Positions 3,476 to 53,953 of a DNA stretch of 54,022 bases are shown piece after piece. The notes under the pieces are model-generated. The model did not search any database. It was not told the DNA's origin and saw only the letters and a list, made by a program, of their open reading frames with translations. Source of the DNA: Acidobacteriota bacterium (GTDB lineage: Bacteria; Acidobacteriota; Blastocatellia; Pyrinomonadales; Pyrinomonadaceae); assembly GCA_003222895.1 (NCBI GenBank), contig QHXI01000077.1, forward strand, positions 1 through 54,022, given 5' to 3'. Positions within the stretch are counted from its first letter, which is position 1, and each line of letters starts with the position of its first letter. The position numbers were made by a program, and so were the translations under genes.

Positions 3476-3533
3476 GAGTGCGCGCAGCGAACGCAGGCAT
3501 CACATGTTCCTAACCCGCGGAGCGGGCGACCGA

Positions 3534-3637
3534 TTTGGAGTGCGCCGGCAGAGTGAAACATCGACGGCGCTTTGGATTGCATGATCAAAAAACTCATCCA
3601 AAGCGGTGTCGCGCCGAGCTTGCCGCCGCACTCCAAA
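3534..3637. mobile_element. transposase-free pair of inverted REP sequences (REPIN-like)
   Basis: The left unit 3534-3578 begins TTTGGAGTGCGCCGGCAGAG and ends GACGGCGCTTTGGATT. The right unit 3596-3637 begins ATCCAAAGCGGTGTCGCGCC and ends GCCGCACTCCAAA, and is its imperfect reverse complement. The same unit flanks the RAYT gene at 52182-52748. Two inverted REPs with a short spacer and no gene is the layout called a REPIN, a non-autonomous product of REP-associated tyrosine transposases. Confidence 0.75.
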
Positions 3638-21094: not shown

Positions 21095-21104
21095 AATGAT
21101 AAGT

Positions 21105-23045
21105 ATGTGCGGTATCAGCGGACTCATAACCCAGAATCCTGAGGCGCACATCGGCGCGATGTTGAAGAGCATCGAGCATCGCGGGCGTGACGATGAAGGT
21201 GTGTGGACCTCGACGATCAACGATGAAGGACAGAGCGTTTGTTTGGGGCATCGACGTCTGTCAATCATCGACACCAGCAGCGCGGGACATCAGCCGATGC
21301 TTTCACGCGATAGTCGGTTCGTAATAATCCTCAACGGCGAGATTTATAACTATCGCGAGCTGCGCGAACAACTCTCCGGCAAGGGTCACGTCTTTCGCAC
21401 GCAGGCCGACACTGAAGTTTTGCTGGCGGCTTGGGCAGAGTGGGGAAGCGATTGTCTGGCGAAATTGAACGGCATGTTTGCGTTCGCTCTCTGGGACGAC
21501 CGAGAGCGATCGTTATTTCTCGTCCGCGATCACGTTGGCATCAAGCCGCTTTATTACGTTGCGTGTCAGAAGCCCGACCGTGAGGGAGGGCATGCCCCGT
21601 TTGCGTTCGCTTCTGAAATCAAATCGATCCTCGCGAGCGGGTTAATCAAAGCCGAACTCGATCACGAATCGCTCCATCAGTTTCTGACCTTTCTCTGGGC
21701 GCCCGATCCGAACACGCTCTTCAAAGGAATCAAGACTGTGCCGCCGGGTCATTTCGTGAAGTGGCACAATGGCGGACTCTCTGTCCATCAATGGTGGGAT
21801 ATTTCCTTCGACGATATCGACTCAGGTAAGAGCGAGCAGTGGTGGCAGGAGCAAGTCCTGGAAACACTCGATCGTGTGGTGAAGCTCGAGATGGTTGCCG
21901 ACGTGCCGCTCGGATCGTTTCTCTCTGGCGGAGTGGATTCTTCAGCTATTGCCGCGATGATGAAGCGTCACAGTGACGGACGGCGAATCGAAACCTACAC
22001 GATTGGGATGGAAGCTGAAGATTTGCGTTTCGACATCATTCCTGACGATGTGCAGTGGGCGCGCAAAGTCAATCAACAGCTCGACACTGATTATCACGAG
22101 ATCATTCTGAAACCTGACGTGACGGAACTGCTTCCCAAGCTTGTCTATCATATGGACGAGCCCGCGATCGACATGGCCATTCCGACTTATCTGGTTTCGC
22201 GAGCGGCGCGCGAAACGATGCGCGTGATGTTGAGCGGCATGGGCGGTGACGAAGTTTTCGCCGGCTATCCGCGACAGATGGCGATGCAGATTGCCGGTGC
22301 ATTTGATCCTGTGCCGCAACTCTTGCGAAGACCTGTGATGAAAGCCTTGGCGGCCGTATTGCCAGGCGGTATCCCCGGCAAGTTAACCGCGCCGCTGCGC
22401 AATGCGAAGAAGTTTGCGCGCAGCGCGGCACTCGATTTCGAGAATCGTTATCTTGGGTTCGAAACTTACTTCACTGATGAAGCGAAGCAGCGAATCTACT
22501 CGGATGAATTGCGAGGGCGCACGCGCGGGCTTGATGCTTATCACCAGCATCGAGCATATTTTGCGAAAGCAAGGAACGCCGCGCCACTCAATCAACTGCT
22601 CTACGTCGATATGAAAACGTTTTTGCCGTGTCTGAACTTAATGACGACGGACAAGACCTCGATGGCCGCGAATCTGGAAGTGCGCGTGCCGTTTCTGAAT
22701 CAGGAAATGTTGAAGCTCACCGCGCGTATGCCGGCTGGTCTCAAACTCAAGGGTTTGAAGCGCAAATACATTTTGAAGAAGGCCGCGGAGAAACTCTTGC
22801 CACGCGATGTGGTGTGGCGAAAGAAAGCTGGATTCGGAGCGCCCATTCGATCATGGCTGCGCGGCGCTCTGCGTCCAATGGTTGAAGATTTATTGTCGGA
22901 AGAGACGATCAGGCGGCGCGGATTGTTTCGGCCGGAAGAAGTGCGAAGGATTATCGATGCGAACCTTTCGGGTCGGGAAGACTTTAACCTGCAGGTCTTT
23001 CAACTTTTGAATTTGGAGTTGTGGATGCGGGCGTTTATTGATTAG
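21105..23045 (+). CDS. asnB: asparagine synthase (glutamine-hydrolysing)
   Basis: ATG 21105 is chosen over ATG 21096 because it puts Cys at position 2 (MCGISG), the nucleophile of the glutaminase domain once Met is removed. The class II amidotransferase domain spans about 1-200 (SIEHRGRDD, LNGEIYNYRELR, DHVGIKPLYY). The synthetase domain follows with the pyrophosphate loop LSGGVDSSA. The product has 646 residues. Members in glycan clusters often amidate sugar carboxylates, and the neighbouring nucleotide-sugar dehydrogenase would make uronic acids, so that role is plausible. Residues about 153-165 (ACQKPDREGGHAP) are an extra loop encoded by dispersed repeat J. Confidence 0.9.
   Translation: MCGISGLITQNPEAHIGAMLKSIEHRGRDDEGVWTSTINDEGQSVCLGHRRLSIIDTSSAGHQPMLSRDSRFVIILNGEIYNYRELREQLSGKGHVFRTQADTEVLLAAWAEWGSDCLAKLNGMFAFALWDDRERSLFLVRDHVGIKPLYYVACQKPDREGGHAPFAFASEIKSILASGLIKAELDHESLHQFLTFLWAPDPNTLFKGIKTVPPGHFVKWHNGGLSVHQWWDISFDDIDSGKSEQWWQEQVLETLDRVVKLEMVADVPLGSFLSGGVDSSAIAAMMKRHSDGRRIETYTIGMEAEDLRFDIIPDDVQWARKVNQQLDTDYHEIILKPDVTELLPKLVYHMDEPAIDMAIPTYLVSRAARETMRVMLSGMGGDEVFAGYPRQMAMQIAGAFDPVPQLLRRPVMKALAAVLPGGIPGKLTAPLRNAKKFARSAALDFENRYLGFETYFTDEAKQRIYSDELRGRTRGLDAYHQHRAYFAKARNAAPLNQLLYVDMKTFLPCLNLMTTDKTSMAANLEVRVPFLNQEMLKLTARMPAGLKLKGLKRKYILKKAAEKLLPRDVVWRKKAGFGAPIRSWLRGALRPMVEDLLSEETIRRRGLFRPEEVRRIIDANLSGREDFNLQVFQLLNLELWMRAFID
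21563..21594 (+). repeat. dispersed repeat J inside asnB
   Basis: GTGTCAGAAGCCCGACCGTG...AGGGAGGGCATG matches the intergenic copy at 41512-41545, which differs at only a few bases. It also matches copies at 41611-41640 (inverted) and 49982-50010. Here it is read in frame within the glutaminase domain. Confidence 0.7.
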
Positions 23046-41511: not shown

Positions 41512-41545
41512 CAGTGTCAGAAGCCCGAGCGTCAGCCAGGGCATG
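41512..41545 (+). repeat. dispersed repeat J, intergenic copy
   Basis: CAGTGTCAGAAGCCCGAGCG...TCAGCCAGGGCATG faces the inverted copy at 41611-41640 across 65 bp. It is the best match to the copy inside asnB. Confidence 0.7.
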
Positions 41546-41610: not shown

Positions 41611-41640
41611 GCCCTCCCTCACGGTCGGACTTCCGACACT
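41611..41640 (-). repeat. dispersed repeat J, copy at the 3' end of oppF
   Basis: Read on the minus strand, AGTGTCGGAAGTCCGACCGT...GAGGGAGGGC. It encodes the last oppF residues (VSEVRP) and its TGA stop. Confidence 0.7.
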
Positions 41641-42638
41641 GGCTCTGAGCTCGGCGCGCTTGCGTAACCGTCGACGCGAATGCATGCGACACTATGCGTC
41701 GGCGAAATCTCTCGTAACTCTGGATCGATTCGCGCGCATTCGTCAATCGCGATGGGGCAGCGTGTGCGAAAGCGACAGCCGGACGGTGGATGGCGCGAGG
41801 TCGGCACATCGCCTTTCAAAATAATTCGATCGCGCTTTTCCCTGGGATCGGGAATTGGGATCGCAGAGAGCAGCGCCAGCGTGTACGGATGCAGCGGATT
41901 AAAGTAAAGCTCTTTGGCGTCGGCGATCTCGACGATGCGGCCAAGATACATCACCGCGACGCGCGTGGAAATATGTTCGACCACGGCGAGTCCATGCGAT
42001 ATGAACAGGTAAGTCAGTCCAAATTCTTTCTGAAGATCCTGGAGTAAATTGACGACTTGCGCTTGCACTGAAACATCGAGCGCCGAAACCGGCTCGTCCG
42101 CGACAATCAGTTTTGGATTCAGCGCCAGGGCTCGCGCCACGCCGATGCGCTGCAGTTGGCCGCCGGAGAATTCGTGGCTGTAGCGCTTCATGTAATCGGG
42201 ATCAAGACCGACTTTGCCAAGCAGCCAGGCGACGCGATCGTGCTGCTCTTTCGTGTTGCCGATGCGGTGGATGACCAGCGGCTCGGCAATGATATCGCCA
42301 ATCTTCATGCGCGGATTTATTGAAGCGTTTGGATCCTGAAAGATGATTTGCATCTCGCGACGCAACTCGCGCAGCTCGCGTTTGCCCATCGCGATTACGT
42401 CGCGTCCTTCGAATTGAACGTCGCCGCGAGTCGGTTCAATCAAGCGCAGAACGCATCGGCCGGTGGTCGATTTCCCGCAGCCCGATTCGCCGACCAGGCC
42501 CAGCGTTTCACCGCGCACGATGTCGAACGTCACACCATCAAGCGCCCGCCAAACATCATCAGTGCCTTCCACTGGAAAGTGCTTGACAAGGTCACGAACC
42601 TTGACGAGCGCGTTGTGATTTTGACTTCGAGAATCCAT
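41619..42638 (-). CDS. oppF: oligopeptide/dipeptide ABC transporter ATP-binding protein (OppF/DppF type)
   Basis: ATG 42638 (MDSRSQNHN) is chosen over an upstream GTG whose codons come from an inverted repeat. The product has 339 residues. Walker [21 protein letters not shown], signature [27 protein letters not shown] and FISHGL are present. The C-terminal oligopeptide-binding extension has the Cys pattern [15 protein letters not shown]. It pairs with OppD upstream. No permease or binding-protein genes are nearby, so the complex must draw on genes elsewhere. The C-terminal tail is repeat J sequence. Confidence 0.88.
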
Positions 42639-42650
42639 CGATTCAGCTTC

Positions 42651-42806
42651 GCGGCTATGCCGCCGCACAGTGCGGTAAGGCCGCCTTACCGAGTTCGATC
42701 ATACAAGGCTGAGGCTCCGCCTCCGAATTGAAGCATAGCCTCAGCTTTCATTTTCATTCGCGTCGGAAAGGCGAAACCTTTCCGCACTGTGCTGCGGCAT
42801 AGCCGC
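42651..42806. repeat. inverted repeats between and into the oppD and oppF genes
   Basis: GCGGCTATGCCGCCGCACAG...TGCGGTAAGG (42651-42680) is mirrored by CCTTTCCGCACTGTGCTGCG...GCATAGCCGC (42777-42806). Nested inside are CGGTAAGGCCGCCTTACCG (42673-42691) and GCTGAGGCT/AGCCTCAGC arms. The right outer arm is inside the oppD coding region. Confidence 0.7.
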
Positions 42807-49461: not shown

Positions 49462-50013
49462 ATGAATAACGATCAACCAATCGGCCAACATTATCTCGAC
49501 GATGCGCTGAAAACGTTTCGCTATTACAAGACGCTCGCGGAACGCGCCTTCGCGCAACTCGGCGATGAAGATTTCTTTCGCACGATCGACGACGAATCAA
49601 ACAGCATCGCCGTTAACATAAAGCACATGGCCGGCAACATGCTCTCGCGCTGGACCGATTTTTTCATGAGCGACGGCGAGAAGCCCGACCGCAATCGCGA
49701 CCTCGAATTTGTCACCCTTCCCGGAACGACCAAAGATGAAATGCTCGCATATTGGGAAAAAGGTTGGCGGGTCACCTTCGAGGCAATCAATCCATTAACG
49801 CCTGACGATCTGATGCGCACAATCAGAATCCGAGGCCAGGATCACACAGTCATCCAGGCAATCAATCGCCAGCTGACGCACTATGCTTATCATACTGGCC
49901 AGATCGTCTATCTCGCGAAGCATTTCAAATCGAGCGATTGGCAATCTTTGAGTGTGCCCAAGAATAAATCGGCTGAAGCAAGTGTCAGAAGCTCGCGCAT
50001 CAGCAAGGGCTAG
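49462..50013 (+). CDS. DinB/DUF1572-family protein
   Basis: The 183-residue protein has the layout of DinB-superfamily four-helix proteins: AVNIKHMAGNMLSRWTDF with the first His (about residue 55), a middle helix EMLAYWEKGWRVTFEAI, and QLTHYAYHTGQIVYLAKHF with later His residues that could complete a metal site. DUF1572 is my best match. The function is unknown; related proteins are thiol- or metal-dependent transferases. Its last ten residues (SVRSSRISKG) and stop are dispersed repeat J. Confidence 0.75.
   Translation: MNNDQPIGQHYLDDALKTFRYYKTLAERAFAQLGDEDFFRTIDDESNSIAVNIKHMAGNMLSRWTDFFMSDGEKPDRNRDLEFVTLPGTTKDEMLAYWEKGWRVTFEAINPLTPDDLMRTIRIRGQDHTVIQAINRQLTHYAYHTGQIVYLAKHFKSSDWQSLSVPKNKSAEASVRSSRISKG
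49982..50010 (+). repeat. dispersed repeat J at the end of the DinB-like gene
   Basis: GTGTCAGAAGCTCGCGCATC...AGCAAGGGC overlaps the last codons of the DinB-like gene, and the stop TAG follows directly. Confidence 0.65.
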
Positions 50014-51322: not shown

Positions 51323-52111
51323 ATGAATCCAAAATCATTTCTTTACGAAAAAAGGGATGGCATCGGAACGATCACGCTCAATCGGCCCGAACGCCTTAAC
51401 GCGATTACCTTTGAGGTCTATCACGAGTTGACGGATTTCATGGCGCAGTTGCGCGATGAAAAAGACGTTCGCGTTGTGGTAATCACCGGAGCTGGTCGCG
51501 CGTTCTGTTCTGGGGGCGACGTCATCGATATCATCGGCGAACTTCAAGGCCGCGACGCGGAAGGATTGGTTGAGTTCACCCGTCTGACCTGCGCGTTGAT
51601 TCACAACATGCGCGCGCTGCCGAAACCGATCATCGCGTCGCTGAATGGAATAACCGCGGGAGCGGGAGCTTGCATTGCACTTGCTTCCGACATTCGCATC
51701 GCCGCCGAAGAAGCGAAGATTGCTTTTATCTTTGTGAAAGTCGGGCTCGCCGGAACCGACATGGGCGCGACTTATCTCTTGCCGCGGGTGGTTGGATTAT
51801 CAAAAGCGACAGAGCTGTTAATGACCGGCGATTTTGTTTCAGCAGCGGAGGCAGAAAAGATCGGCCTCTACAATCGCGTGGTGCCGCGCGATCAGTTGGA
51901 GAACGCGACGCGCGAGTTCGCGGAGAAGCTCGCGCGCGGACCGTCACTCGGAATCGCGAAGACGAAAGAGATGTTGAATCGCGAGATGCACATGGGCTTC
52001 GAGTCAGCTCTGGAAGCTGAAGCCGTCGCCCAAGCCTTGTGCATGCAGACGCCGGATTTCAAGGAAGCGCATGCGGCGTTTGTTGAGAAGCGCCCGGCAA
52101 AGTTTGAATAA
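51323..52111 (+). CDS. enoyl-CoA hydratase/isomerase family protein
   Basis: ATG 51323 (MNPKSFLYEKRDGIGTITLN) is chosen because the upstream part of the frame is repeat K. The product has 262 residues, the normal length. The crotonase motifs are there: ITGAGRAFCSGGDVIDI with the first oxyanion Gly pair, and LNGITAGAGACIALASDIRIA with the second. It hydrates or isomerises enoyl-CoA esters in the cytoplasm. It sits with RidA and an acyl-CoA dehydrogenase, a set often seen in degradation pathways that use CoA esters. Confidence 0.9.
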   Translation: MNPKSFLYEKRDGIGTITLNRPERLNAITFEVYHELTDFMAQLRDEKDVRVVVITGAGRAFCSGGDVIDIIGELQGRDAEGLVEFTRLTCALIHNMRALPKPIIASLNGITAGAGACIALASDIRIAAEEAKIAFIFVKVGLAGTDMGATYLLPRVVGLSKATELLMTGDFVSAAEAEKIGLYNRVVPRDQLENATREFAEKLARGPSLGIAKTKEMLNREMHMGFESALEAEAVAQALCMQTPDFKEAHAAFVEKRPAKFE

Positions 52112-52129
52112 CTTGGAGCGAACCGGCTA

Positions 52130-52174
52130 TTTGGAGTGCGTCGGCAGAGCGCAGCGGCGACGGCGCTTTGGATT
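52130..52174 (+). repeat. REP unit at the left of the RAYT gene
   Basis: TTTGGAGTGCGTCGGCAGAG...CGCAGCGGCGACGGCGCTTTGGATT (given in two parts: to 52149, then GGCGACGGCGCTTTGGATT) ends seven bases before the transposase ATG. It is the inverted partner of 52755-52797 and matches the units at 3534-3637. Confidence 0.85.
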
Positions 52175-52181
52175 ATCCAAC

Positions 52182-52748
52182 ATGAGTGCACCGCAGAGAA
52201 TTTGCTGGCCTCACGCCCCGCTCCATGAACTATCGGCCCGCGGCGCGTATATCGTCACCGCCGGTACTAATAAGAAAGTCCATCACTTTTCCACGCGTAA
52301 GCGGCTGAATGTTCTTCATCGTGGACTTCTCTCAGTCGCGCAAAAATTTGGCTGGCGACTCGAGGCTTGGTCAGTCTTTTCGAATCACTATCACTTTGTC
52401 GGACACTCGCCGGATGAAGGTGCCGACAATATGGCGCGAATGCTCGGACTTCTTCACGAGAAGACAGCGAAGTGGATCAATGATCAGGACAATTCAGCAA
52501 GCCGTGAAGTCTGGCACAATTTTTGGGAAACCAGACTCACTCATAGGAATTCTTACCTTGCCAGACTCAATTACGTGCATCAGAATCCTGTAAAGCATGG
52601 GTTGGTTTTGGTTGCGAATCAGTACCCGTGGTGTTCGGCCGCGTGGTTTGAGAGAACGGCACGTCCTGCACAGATCAAGACTATTTACGGTTTCAAGACA
52701 GATAGATTGAAAGTGCTTGATGATTATGACGCTACGCTTGAAAACTGA
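52182..52748 (+). mobile_element. REP-associated tyrosine transposase (RAYT, Y1/IS200-like)
   Basis: ATG 52182 (MSAPQRICWPHAPLHEL) gives 188 residues. The frame upstream of it is the left REP. The HUH motif is NHYHF (His69 and His71), and the C-terminal YVHQNPVKHGLV carries a candidate nucleophile, Tyr131. Both are hallmarks of REP-associated tyrosine transposases, which cut and join single-stranded REP hairpins. It is flanked by inverted REP units, the first seven bases before the ATG and the second six bases after the stop. It is inserted between the enoyl-CoA hydratase and acyl-CoA dehydrogenase genes. The gene is intact, so it could be active on the element at 3534-3637. Confidence 0.88.
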
Positions 52749-52754
52749 AACATA

Positions 52755-52797
52755 AATCCAAAGCGCCGTCGCTGCTTCGCGTTGCCGGCGCACTCCA
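52755..52797 (-). repeat. REP unit at the right of the RAYT gene, touching the next start codon
   Basis: AATCCAAAGCGCCGTCGCTG...CTTCGCGTTGCCGGCGCACTCCA (in parts to 52774 and from CTTCGCG) is the reverse complement of the left unit. It ends at 52797, one base before the acyl-CoA dehydrogenase ATG at 52799. Confidence 0.85.
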
Positions 52798-52798
52798 G

Positions 52799-53953
52799 AT
52801 GGATTCCTTCATAGAGACAACTCCATTCTTCTCCAACGAACATCGTTCGCTGGCAAGCCGTGTCGCTGAATTCGCTGAGCGTGAAATCGAAGTGCGCGCC
52901 GGCGATGATGAAGGCGACGCGGACGAAGCGCTGCGTGGCTATGTGATGCTGCTCGCGGAAAATGGTTTTTTGCGGTACGCCGTCCCCGAACCCGGCCAGT
53001 CATTCGATCTCAGAGCTTTCTGCATAATTCGCGAGAACCTTTCTTATTCATCGTCGCTCGCCGATCTCGCATTCGTGCTGCAGGGTCTCGGAACGTATGC
53101 GATTAGCGTCGCGGCGACTGAACACGTGCGCGATTTCTGGCTGGCGCGCGCGCGCAACGGACAAGCGATCGCGGCTTTTGCTTTGACTGAACCCGATGCA
53201 GGTTCCGACGTCGCTTCGCTGAAAACGGTCGCGCAACGTGAAGACGACACCTACGTCATCAACGGTCGCAAGCGATTCATCTCCAATGCGGGCGTCGCAG
53301 ATTTCTATACGGTTTTTGCGCGCACCGGAACACGTGAAGACGGCCGCGCCGAGCTCTCCGCATTTATTGTCAGCGCGCGCATGCCGGGATTTAGTGTCGC
53401 GGAGAAGACGGAAATGATCGCGCCGCATCCGATCGGTGAACTTGAATTCAAAGACTGCCGCGTGCCCGCGGAAGACATGATCGGAAATCAAGGCGATGGC
53501 TTGCGTTTGTCTCTGCAAACGCTCGACTTGTTTCGCGCGAGCGTAGGCGCTGCGGCCTGCGGCATGGCGCGTCGCGCACTGGACGAAAGTTTGCTGCATG
53601 CAAAGTCGCGCGAGCAATTTGGAAAACCGCTTTCCGGCCATCAATTGATTCAGGAAAAGCTCGCCGATATGGCGACTGAATTAGATGCCGCGCGGTTGTT
53701 GGTCTATCGCGCGGCGTACTTAAAAGATGCCGGCGCCGCAACGTCGACACGCGAAGCCAGCGAAGCAAAGCTCTTCGCCACCGAAGCCGCCGGCCGCATT
53801 GTCGATCAGTCGGTGCAGATTCACGGCGGCACCGGTCTGGTGCGCGGCACCGTCGTCGAACGCCTTTATCGCGAGGTGCGCGCGCTGCGAATTTACGAAG
53901 GCACATCAGAAATTCAAAAGCTCGTGATTGCTAATCAACTCCTTAAGGAGTAG
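52799..53953 (+). CDS. acyl-CoA dehydrogenase
   Basis: The 384-residue flavoprotein has the family signatures ALTEPDAGSDVASLKTVA (about 125-142), a FAD-adjacent YVINGRKRFISNAG, SREQFGKPLSGHQ, and QIHGGTGLVRGTVVERLYREVRALRIYEGTSEIQ near the end (in parts QIHGGTGLVRG and RIYEGTSEIQ). The Glu of YEGTSE is where the catalytic base lies in many members. It oxidises an acyl-CoA to the enoyl-CoA that the hydratase two genes upstream would use. Its 5' leader is entirely a REP element, so no ribosome site is visible; the true translation signal is unclear. Confidence 0.9.
   Translation: MDSFIETTPFFSNEHRSLASRVAEFAEREIEVRAGDDEGDADEALRGYVMLLAENGFLRYAVPEPGQSFDLRAFCIIRENLSYSSSLADLAFVLQGLGTYAISVAATEHVRDFWLARARNGQAIAAFALTEPDAGSDVASLKTVAQREDDTYVINGRKRFISNAGVADFYTVFARTGTREDGRAELSAFIVSARMPGFSVAEKTEMIAPHPIGELEFKDCRVPAEDMIGNQGDGLRLSLQTLDLFRASVGAAACGMARRALDESLLHAKSREQFGKPLSGHQLIQEKLADMATELDAARLLVYRAAYLKDAGAATSTREASEAKLFATEAAGRIVDQSVQIHGGTGLVRGTVVERLYREVRALRIYEGTSEIQKLVIANQLLKE

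Follow-up and report, generated by a model that had tools for sequence, protein, structure and literature searches.

REP sequences are usually regarded as extragenic. Intragenic GTAG and CGTC REPs have been described in known enzyme genes, where they are found as singles, dimers or groups; over half of these inserts encode 20-30 amino acids and slightly more than 10% lie at gene ends (Di Nocera et al. 2013, PMC3733652). The recB gene of two Xanthomonas species, which is given there as one case, carries different REPs at about the same site. The CGTC REP is presented in that report with a CGTC or TGTC end, an 8-9 bp stem, mostly HH dimers and no dedicated transposase (PMC3733652). Rickettsia palindromic elements (RPE) are translated in frame inside unrelated functional proteins (PMC3733652, PMC10969869), and two of them, RPE-4 and RPE-6, have been classed as short REPs (PMC3733652). 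In Pseudomonas fluorescens SBW25, inverted and hairpin-forming REP doublets (REPINs) constitute the unit of spread, and excisions are listed (PMC3116915). TnpA-REP of E. coli processes single-stranded REP hairpins in vitro (PMC8266576), and the acidobacterium Koribacter has been named for transposase-linked terminal repeats (PMC3733652). In-frame intragenic REPs and RPEs are therefore a kind of element already published (PMC3733652, PMC10969869).

We analyzed a palindrome of this kind, hereafter J, which is read in frame inside the asnB gene of a soil-dwelling member of the Pyrinomonadaceae (Acidobacteriota). The window is a stretch of 54,022 nucleotides, contig C129 of a draft genome of 4.77 Mb in 167 contigs. 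This genome is denoted G000, and six further genomes of the same genus are denoted G001-G006.

A palindrome translated inside asnB

The gene carrying the element (21105-23045, forward strand) is an open reading frame for an AsnB-family glutamine-dependent amidotransferase with the Pfam domains GATase_7, GATase_6 and Asn_synthase. The TIGR01536 model of asparagine synthase scores above its cut-off on the product, and the top-scoring NCBIfam model, that of the XrtA/PEP-CTERM amidotransferase, scores below its own. The predicted class II glutaminase, synthase domain and N-terminal cysteine are, from the sequence, those of an AsnB-type asparagine synthase. Class II glutaminases rely on N-terminal-cysteine chemistry, the catalytic cysteine standing right after the methionine. 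We took the ATG at 21105 as the start because the cysteine then follows the methionine (N-terminus MCGI), and the listed start at 21096 is probably three codons too early; M1-C2 is invariant in 15 of 15 aligned rows. The neighborhood consists of polysaccharide genes, as judged by eye, and the nearest named relatives by AsnB protein are metagenome-assembled genomes of Blastocatellia/Pyrinomonadaceae. The enzyme had been called essential in an earlier note on this DNA, which we could not support, as seven AsnB-like matches are present in this genome.

J occupies positions 21563-21591 on the forward strand, as a type I stem-loop without mismatch to the family pattern GTGTCAGAAGCCCGMNCGTNAGNNAGGGC; the earlier note had correctly recognized it as an in-frame repeat, with an end (21594) that adds three bases. 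The frame across the element reads GCG TGT CAG AAG CCC GAC CGT GAG GGA GGG CAT GCC CCG, which is translated as A-CQKPDREGG-HAP. The J-encoded codons C154-G162 (CQKPDREGG; 21564-21590, forward strand; numbered from the ATG at 21105) belong to the glutaminase domain and lie between predicted strands at residues 149/150-153 and 166-169, a strand-turn-strand arrangement on which both structure models agree. These models are of low to modest confidence (mean pLDDT of 49.7 for the full-length protein and 64.6 for the domain) and were used only to place this arrangement. The domain model matches AsnB-type structures (7ylz, E 9.5e-13; 1ct9, 1.9e-12). The reading frame and the domains are intact around J, and the folding of this copy together with its flanks does not surpass that of shuffled sequences (z -0.01).

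The J family

Allowing up to three mismatches, the J pattern was found four times in the window, where 100 shuffles gave a mean of 0.00, and at 135 places in the genome, against 0 for the reversed-pattern control. These counts rule out a chance match in the window. The 100 places with 0 or 1 mismatch were listed and 66 stretches around them were fetched; together with the window, they contain 121 copies (57 with 0, 43 with 1 and 21 with 2-3 mismatches), which include all of these 100. Grouping the copies that are at most 150 bp apart yields 73 sites.

J is a 29-nt stem-loop. The stem GCCC..CC(GTNA)GG..GGGC, with tandem mismatches, is shared by 78 distinct copies, and 92.7% of the cells of its six pairs are standard pairs, compared to 23-61% after a shift of the 3' side by 1-3 positions. 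Pair 16-23 is C-G in 42 copies and G-C in 26, which represents a compensatory change; the two forms of this pair define type I and type II. Nearly all multi-copy sites are inverted: 43 of the 45 are +-, one is +-- and one is +-+-, and the GTGTCAG ends face outward. Among 40 close dimers, 27 measure 72-74 nt and none is of the II/II type, nine of the 40 having an untyped arm. Relative to shuffled sequences, the folding of a J dimer reaches a z of -7.7 and that of single copies is modest (z -1.7 and -1.6). J is therefore a short stem-loop, within the 20-40 nt expected of REPs, which is present in many dispersed copies, forms inverted doublets and is mostly extragenic: nine of the 73 sites are clearly inside a gene and one is at a domain junction, the remaining sites are intergenic, ambiguous or located at the start or end of a gene. 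By its anatomy, J is a REP/REPIN-like element.

Two of the other copies in the window form a wide inverted pair. Its left arm is intergenic (41514-41542, forward strand) and its right arm (41611-41639, reverse strand) overlaps the 3' end of an ABC-transporter ATPase-like gene (41619-42668, reverse strand), of which it encodes the C-terminal VSEVRP as well as the stop codon. A degenerate copy with two mismatches (49982-50010, forward strand) is located at the 3' end of a DUF1572 gene (49462-50013), where it encodes the final residues SVRSSRISKG. The asnB copy had been described as nearly identical to an intergenic copy at 41512-41545; with 28 of 32 positions matching (88%) at 41514-41545, this wording was a little strong, and a closer match, with 93% over 29 nt, is provided by the inverted copy at 41611-41639.

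At up to two mismatches, J was found at 127 places in G000, 105 in G001, 99 in G002, 178 in G003, 26 in G004, 6 in G005 and 108 in G006, and at 0-5 places in the 13 other genomes searched. J is thus abundant in most members of the genus and nearly limited to it.

Two palindrome families in one loop

We compared the asnB loop across an alignment of 60 rows, 59 of which have the loop and 50 of which are outside the genus; some rows represent one contig twice. The AsnB loop between YY and FASE is 16 amino acids long in G000. Outside the genus, it measures 8 amino acids in 14 of the 50 rows, 12-14 in 32 (14 in 25 of these) and 15 in one, and the last three rows, all from one other genus (L025, L066 and L067), have loops of 24-27 amino acids without J or K. 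Because its length outside the genus varies from 8 to 27 amino acids, this site appears permissive in general. The claim that relatives have a much shorter loop holds for the more distant ones only.

The loop holds J in G000 (0 mismatches) and in G001 (1 mismatch). In G002, G004, G005 and G006, it holds another palindrome, K (GCNGGCNNGATGCCNGCGCTCC), with best matches at 1, 1, 3 and 0 mismatches, respectively, and measures 13-24 amino acids. A REP-like palindrome is thereby found in this loop in all six genomes of the genus that have this asnB; G003 yielded no asnB match at the threshold used. Neither J (up to 6 mismatches) nor K (up to 4 mismatches) was detected in the loop in any of the 50 rows outside the genus. 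At up to one mismatch, K was found at 5-33 places per genome of the genus and at 0-3 places in six others, with 0 for the control, and the asnB-loop copies of G002, G004 and G006 were also recovered in this genome-wide scan. K is therefore a second genus-enriched palindrome family. The capture of a repeat as coding sequence, proposed in the earlier note, is supported by the near restriction of the family to the genus, its absence from the 50 outside rows and the intact frame and domains. Among the aligned rows, no orthologue from a genome devoid of the repeat family presents the same loop: the only other genome with this loop, G001, has 105 J copies.

As loops outside the genus usually have 14 amino acids, relative to 16 in G000, the event in asnB is better described as a loop replacement than as a simple insertion. 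The modeling places the element in a predicted turn. The alignment reveals no clean empty site, and the loops of 24-27 amino acids without J or K in another genus also disfavor a clean insertion. The K-family palindrome in the loop of four other species of the genus suggests that J most likely took over a loop that already held K. The tree built from six proteins, (G002,G004),(G005,(G006,(G000,(G001,G003)))), has a weak branch uniting G000, G001 and G003 (70/74) and would allow K in the ancestor of the genus followed by one J gain in the lineage of these three genomes. The tree of the asnB protein alone instead groups G000 with the K-bearing G006 (88/83), and J would then have arrived twice or been lost in G006. 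These trees disagree, and J may have entered once or twice.

In-frame copies in other genes

Across the 73 sites, J was found in frame inside nine recognizable enzymes: AsnB, formimidoylglutamate deiminase (HutF), a formate-dehydrogenase-like molybdoenzyme, an AddB-like protein, an acyl-CoA ligase, an SDR, a TIGR03960-like radical-SAM protein (below the cut-off of that model), pyruvate:ferredoxin oxidoreductase (PFOR) and RsmE. The AddB-like protein is the weakest case, as its Pfam match starts after the element. J also lies at a domain junction, where small and large parts of the aconitase type meet and are read in one frame. Four ambiguous loci (L081, L101, L109 and L117) were left out of this count. 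The asnB copy is thus one of about ten in-gene cases in this genome. These copies are single or dimeric, and several frames and both strands are used. In addition, at least five genes end in J, which supplies their C-terminal residues: those of a RibD_C protein, a CYTH protein and the DUF1572 protein of the window, and, as judged by eye, those of a phosphoglycerate mutase and a histidine kinase.

Orthologues were compared for asnB and for the genes of HutF, the acyl-CoA ligase, the SDR, the radical-SAM protein and PFOR, leaving out RsmE, AddB, the molybdoenzyme and the aconitase junction. For all six genes, orthologues outside the genus lack J; for the five genes other than asnB, no J was detected (up to 6 mismatches, whole open reading frame) in any of 29 orthologues. 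Within the genus, the sites are found in different states. In the radical-SAM gene, the stretch after FLP[DE]S contains a dimer in G000, G002 and G003, what look by eye like remnants in G001 (with one 4-mismatch arm), G005 and G006, and no element in G004. The latter site (L248) is empty, yet G002, the sister of G004 in the concatenated tree, has a near-perfect dimer; this contrast implies independent insertion or precise loss. In PFOR, dimers are present at the same boundary in G000 and G002, and G006 has a single J. In the PFOR gene of G003 (L253), another palindrome is nested in the right arm of a J dimer and the coding frame is kept. For HutF, G000 and G002 have dimers, those of G003 and G004 are weaker, G006 has a single arm and G005 has none; extra J copies are found elsewhere in the open frame of the compared dimer in G003 and G002 (L195 and L196, respectively). 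In the acyl-CoA ligase gene, G006 has a dimer, G000 a dimer with a decayed left arm and G001 one arm, and G005 has a different GC-rich palindrome (K-like by eye). In the SDR gene, J was found only in G000 and G001, and G004 appears to have a shortened form.

Turnover of the captured copies

Four-fold sites differ at about 0.47-0.62 between members of the genus, and, at this divergence, near-consensus J copies at old sites suggest renewal. Between G000 and G001, none of the 10 third positions within the J copy of the SDR gene differs, compared to 0.462 in the flank (binomial 0.002), and in asnB one of 9 differs, compared to 0.422 in the flank (binomial 0.055). In HutF and the acyl-CoA ligase, where the alignments are gapped, 8/19, 8/23, 11/25, 12/22 and 11/22 third positions of J differ, and the corresponding flanks (0.40, 0.52, 0.52, 0.54 and 0.46) indicate no clear depletion in J. 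Third-position conservation is mixed across genes and does not constitute proof of a recent arrival of J.

Arm types differ between species, I versus II, at the PFOR and radical-SAM sites. The PFOR dimer of G002 fits that of G000 better when inverted (57/63, against 48/63 direct), with the same boundaries, and the same is observed for the radical-SAM dimers of these genomes (59/73 inverted, 52/73 direct). The radical-SAM dimers of G003 and G002 fit better directly (55, against 51 inverted) and the HutF dimers of G000 and G002 fit evenly (58 direct, 57 inverted). The spacers do not decide (3/5 inverted against 2/5 direct in PFOR; 6/15 against 5/15 in the radical-SAM gene). With indecisive spacers and two dimer comparisons not in its favor, we do not regard in-place inversion as established; conversion, re-insertion and in-place inversion may each contribute to dimer turnover.

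Transposases and the search for a mobilizer

The window contains a putative Y1 (IS200-like/RAYT-type) transposase gene (52071-52748, forward strand; Y1_Tnp at 20.9 bits, under the cut-off of 23). A third palindrome family, and not J, flanks it in inverted copies (52129-52174 and 52755-52800); a further copy of this family is located at 3533-3578. Among the 8 of 8 Y1 loci of the G000 draft and the 66 loci fetched of 77 matches in the G001-G006 drafts, we found none where main-form J stands close to the Y1 gene on either side at once. At one locus of G000 (L051), J variants with 5 and 3 mismatches lie on either side of a Y1 gene, outside the inner pair of another palindrome, and at L231 J lies on one side of a Y1 gene. 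A RAYT flanked by J was therefore not found in the main form, L051 presenting variants only.

K copies flank a Y1 transposase gene in G004 (L234, 1 mismatch) and G005 (L163, 2 mismatches), and degenerate K copies flank a Y1 gene in G000 (L052). Such an arrangement is what one expects of a REP linked to a RAYT. Several of the eight Y1 genes of G000 (L047-L054) are flanked by differing palindrome families, such as GGCATAAAGCCTGGGG, GGGCAGGGCTTGTCCCTGCCC and K-like sequences; many REP-like systems coexist in one genome.

Discussion

It is very probable that J is a REP/REPIN-like element that was captured in a permissive turn of asnB and is translated there as filler, in a loop that most likely held K beforehand. 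J would be a non-autonomous stem-loop passenger that spread through the genus as single hairpins and inverted dimers, presumably by transposition. One copy, possibly the remnant of a dimer, would have settled in the glutaminase domain, at a turn that joins two beta-strands. When read by hand, the asnB form of J is free of stops in four of its six frames, and its phase-keeping length would leave the gene open; because of these two properties, J copies could survive in permissive loops as filler. Insertions into genes would mostly be purged by selection, and those in turns, linkers and C-termini would survive, presumably as neutral segments.

Alternatively, gene conversion, rather than transposition, could be the main source of renewal for the copies in coding loops, an old captured copy being overwritten from over 100 dispersed ones. 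We consider this possible, if rather unlikely: the few third-position differences in the SDR gene (0/10) and asnB (1/9) and the arm types that differ between species at the same PFOR and radical-SAM sites argue for it, but HutF and the acyl-CoA ligase present no clear depletion, and conversion can neither create the first copy nor exchange J for K. The family-wide conservation of pairing, with its compensatory change, and the near-consensus copies in old genes would also be expected if J was kept for a role at the DNA or RNA level, as a hairpin in the gene or mRNA, with the coding loop as a by-product. Such a role is improbable, since J is carried by unrelated genes and its copies are decayed, shortened or absent in G001, G004, G005 and G006 for the radical-SAM gene and in G002, G004, G005 and G006 for the SDR gene.

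Still less probable is an exaptation of the J peptide that improves the enzyme, e.g., by providing a new contact or a new mode of regulation. Eight of the nine J-encoded AsnB residues are common to G000 and G001, which favors this scenario, but four other species have K-bearing loops of varied length at the same place, and J peptides are found in unrelated enzymes and in several frames. Finally, a repeat-induced misjoin could have put J into asnB, given that J is repetitive and that the genome is a draft of 167 contigs. We regard this artefact as extremely unlikely: both flanks of J belong to one continuous conserved protein, and J or K is found in the same loop of the separately named assemblies UBA11740, palsa_120 and Centralia_MAG_6.

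Beyond the capture of J as filler in asnB, we speculate that coding loops might act as long-lived and reusable docking sites, in which later palindromes of the same or another family replace earlier ones and dimers may flip in place. Flipping would leave the frame intact, since an inverted dimer and its reverse complement share their ends and their length. The differences in dimer type or orientation between species at loci other than asnB would be in line with such reuse.

In this one genus, REP-like hairpins have repeatedly been turned into enzyme loops, and its species present different stages of the process: no element, a near-consensus dimer, another type or orientation, and a decayed remnant. 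This staged series makes two questions accessible to comparative tests: the spread and renewal of short palindromes, and the share of the variation in protein loop length that is due to mobile DNA. Annotators should also be aware that, in this genus, protein segments such as VRSPTVREG, CQKPDREGG and ALPDGRASDT derive from the repeat.

J resembles the GTAG and CGTC REPs in its presence inside enzyme genes and at gene ends and in the occurrence of different families at one site (PMC3733652). It differs from GTAG REPs, which have GTAG before the stem, in that its main form has GAAG (GTGTCAGAAGCCC), although variants reading CAGTAGCCC occur. Its relation to CGTC REPs is ambiguous: a TGTC and inverted dimers are present and no transposase was found for it in the drafts searched, but the long stem of that type is missing, the stem of its single unit being of 4+2 bp with tandem mismatches. 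RPEs are about 150 bp long (PMC10969869), whereas J measures 29 nt, its dimers mostly 72-74 nt, and it is read in several frames and on both strands. Like the REPINs of SBW25, J forms inverted doublets that fold into hairpins (PMC3116915). In SBW25, 14 of 1,067 abundant 16-mers overlap genes (PMC3116915), compared to nine of 73 J sites in enzymes, a contrast between copies and sites that are only roughly comparable. We found no report of REPs inside genes of Pyrinomonadaceae or Blastocatellia in the open-licence literature searched. As far as this literature shows, the J family, its lineage, its sizeable intragenic share (9/73) and the exchange documented species by species within one loop are new. 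Unlike the recB case, as presented in that report (PMC3733652), a single loop is followed here across six species of a genus, with two palindrome families in it.
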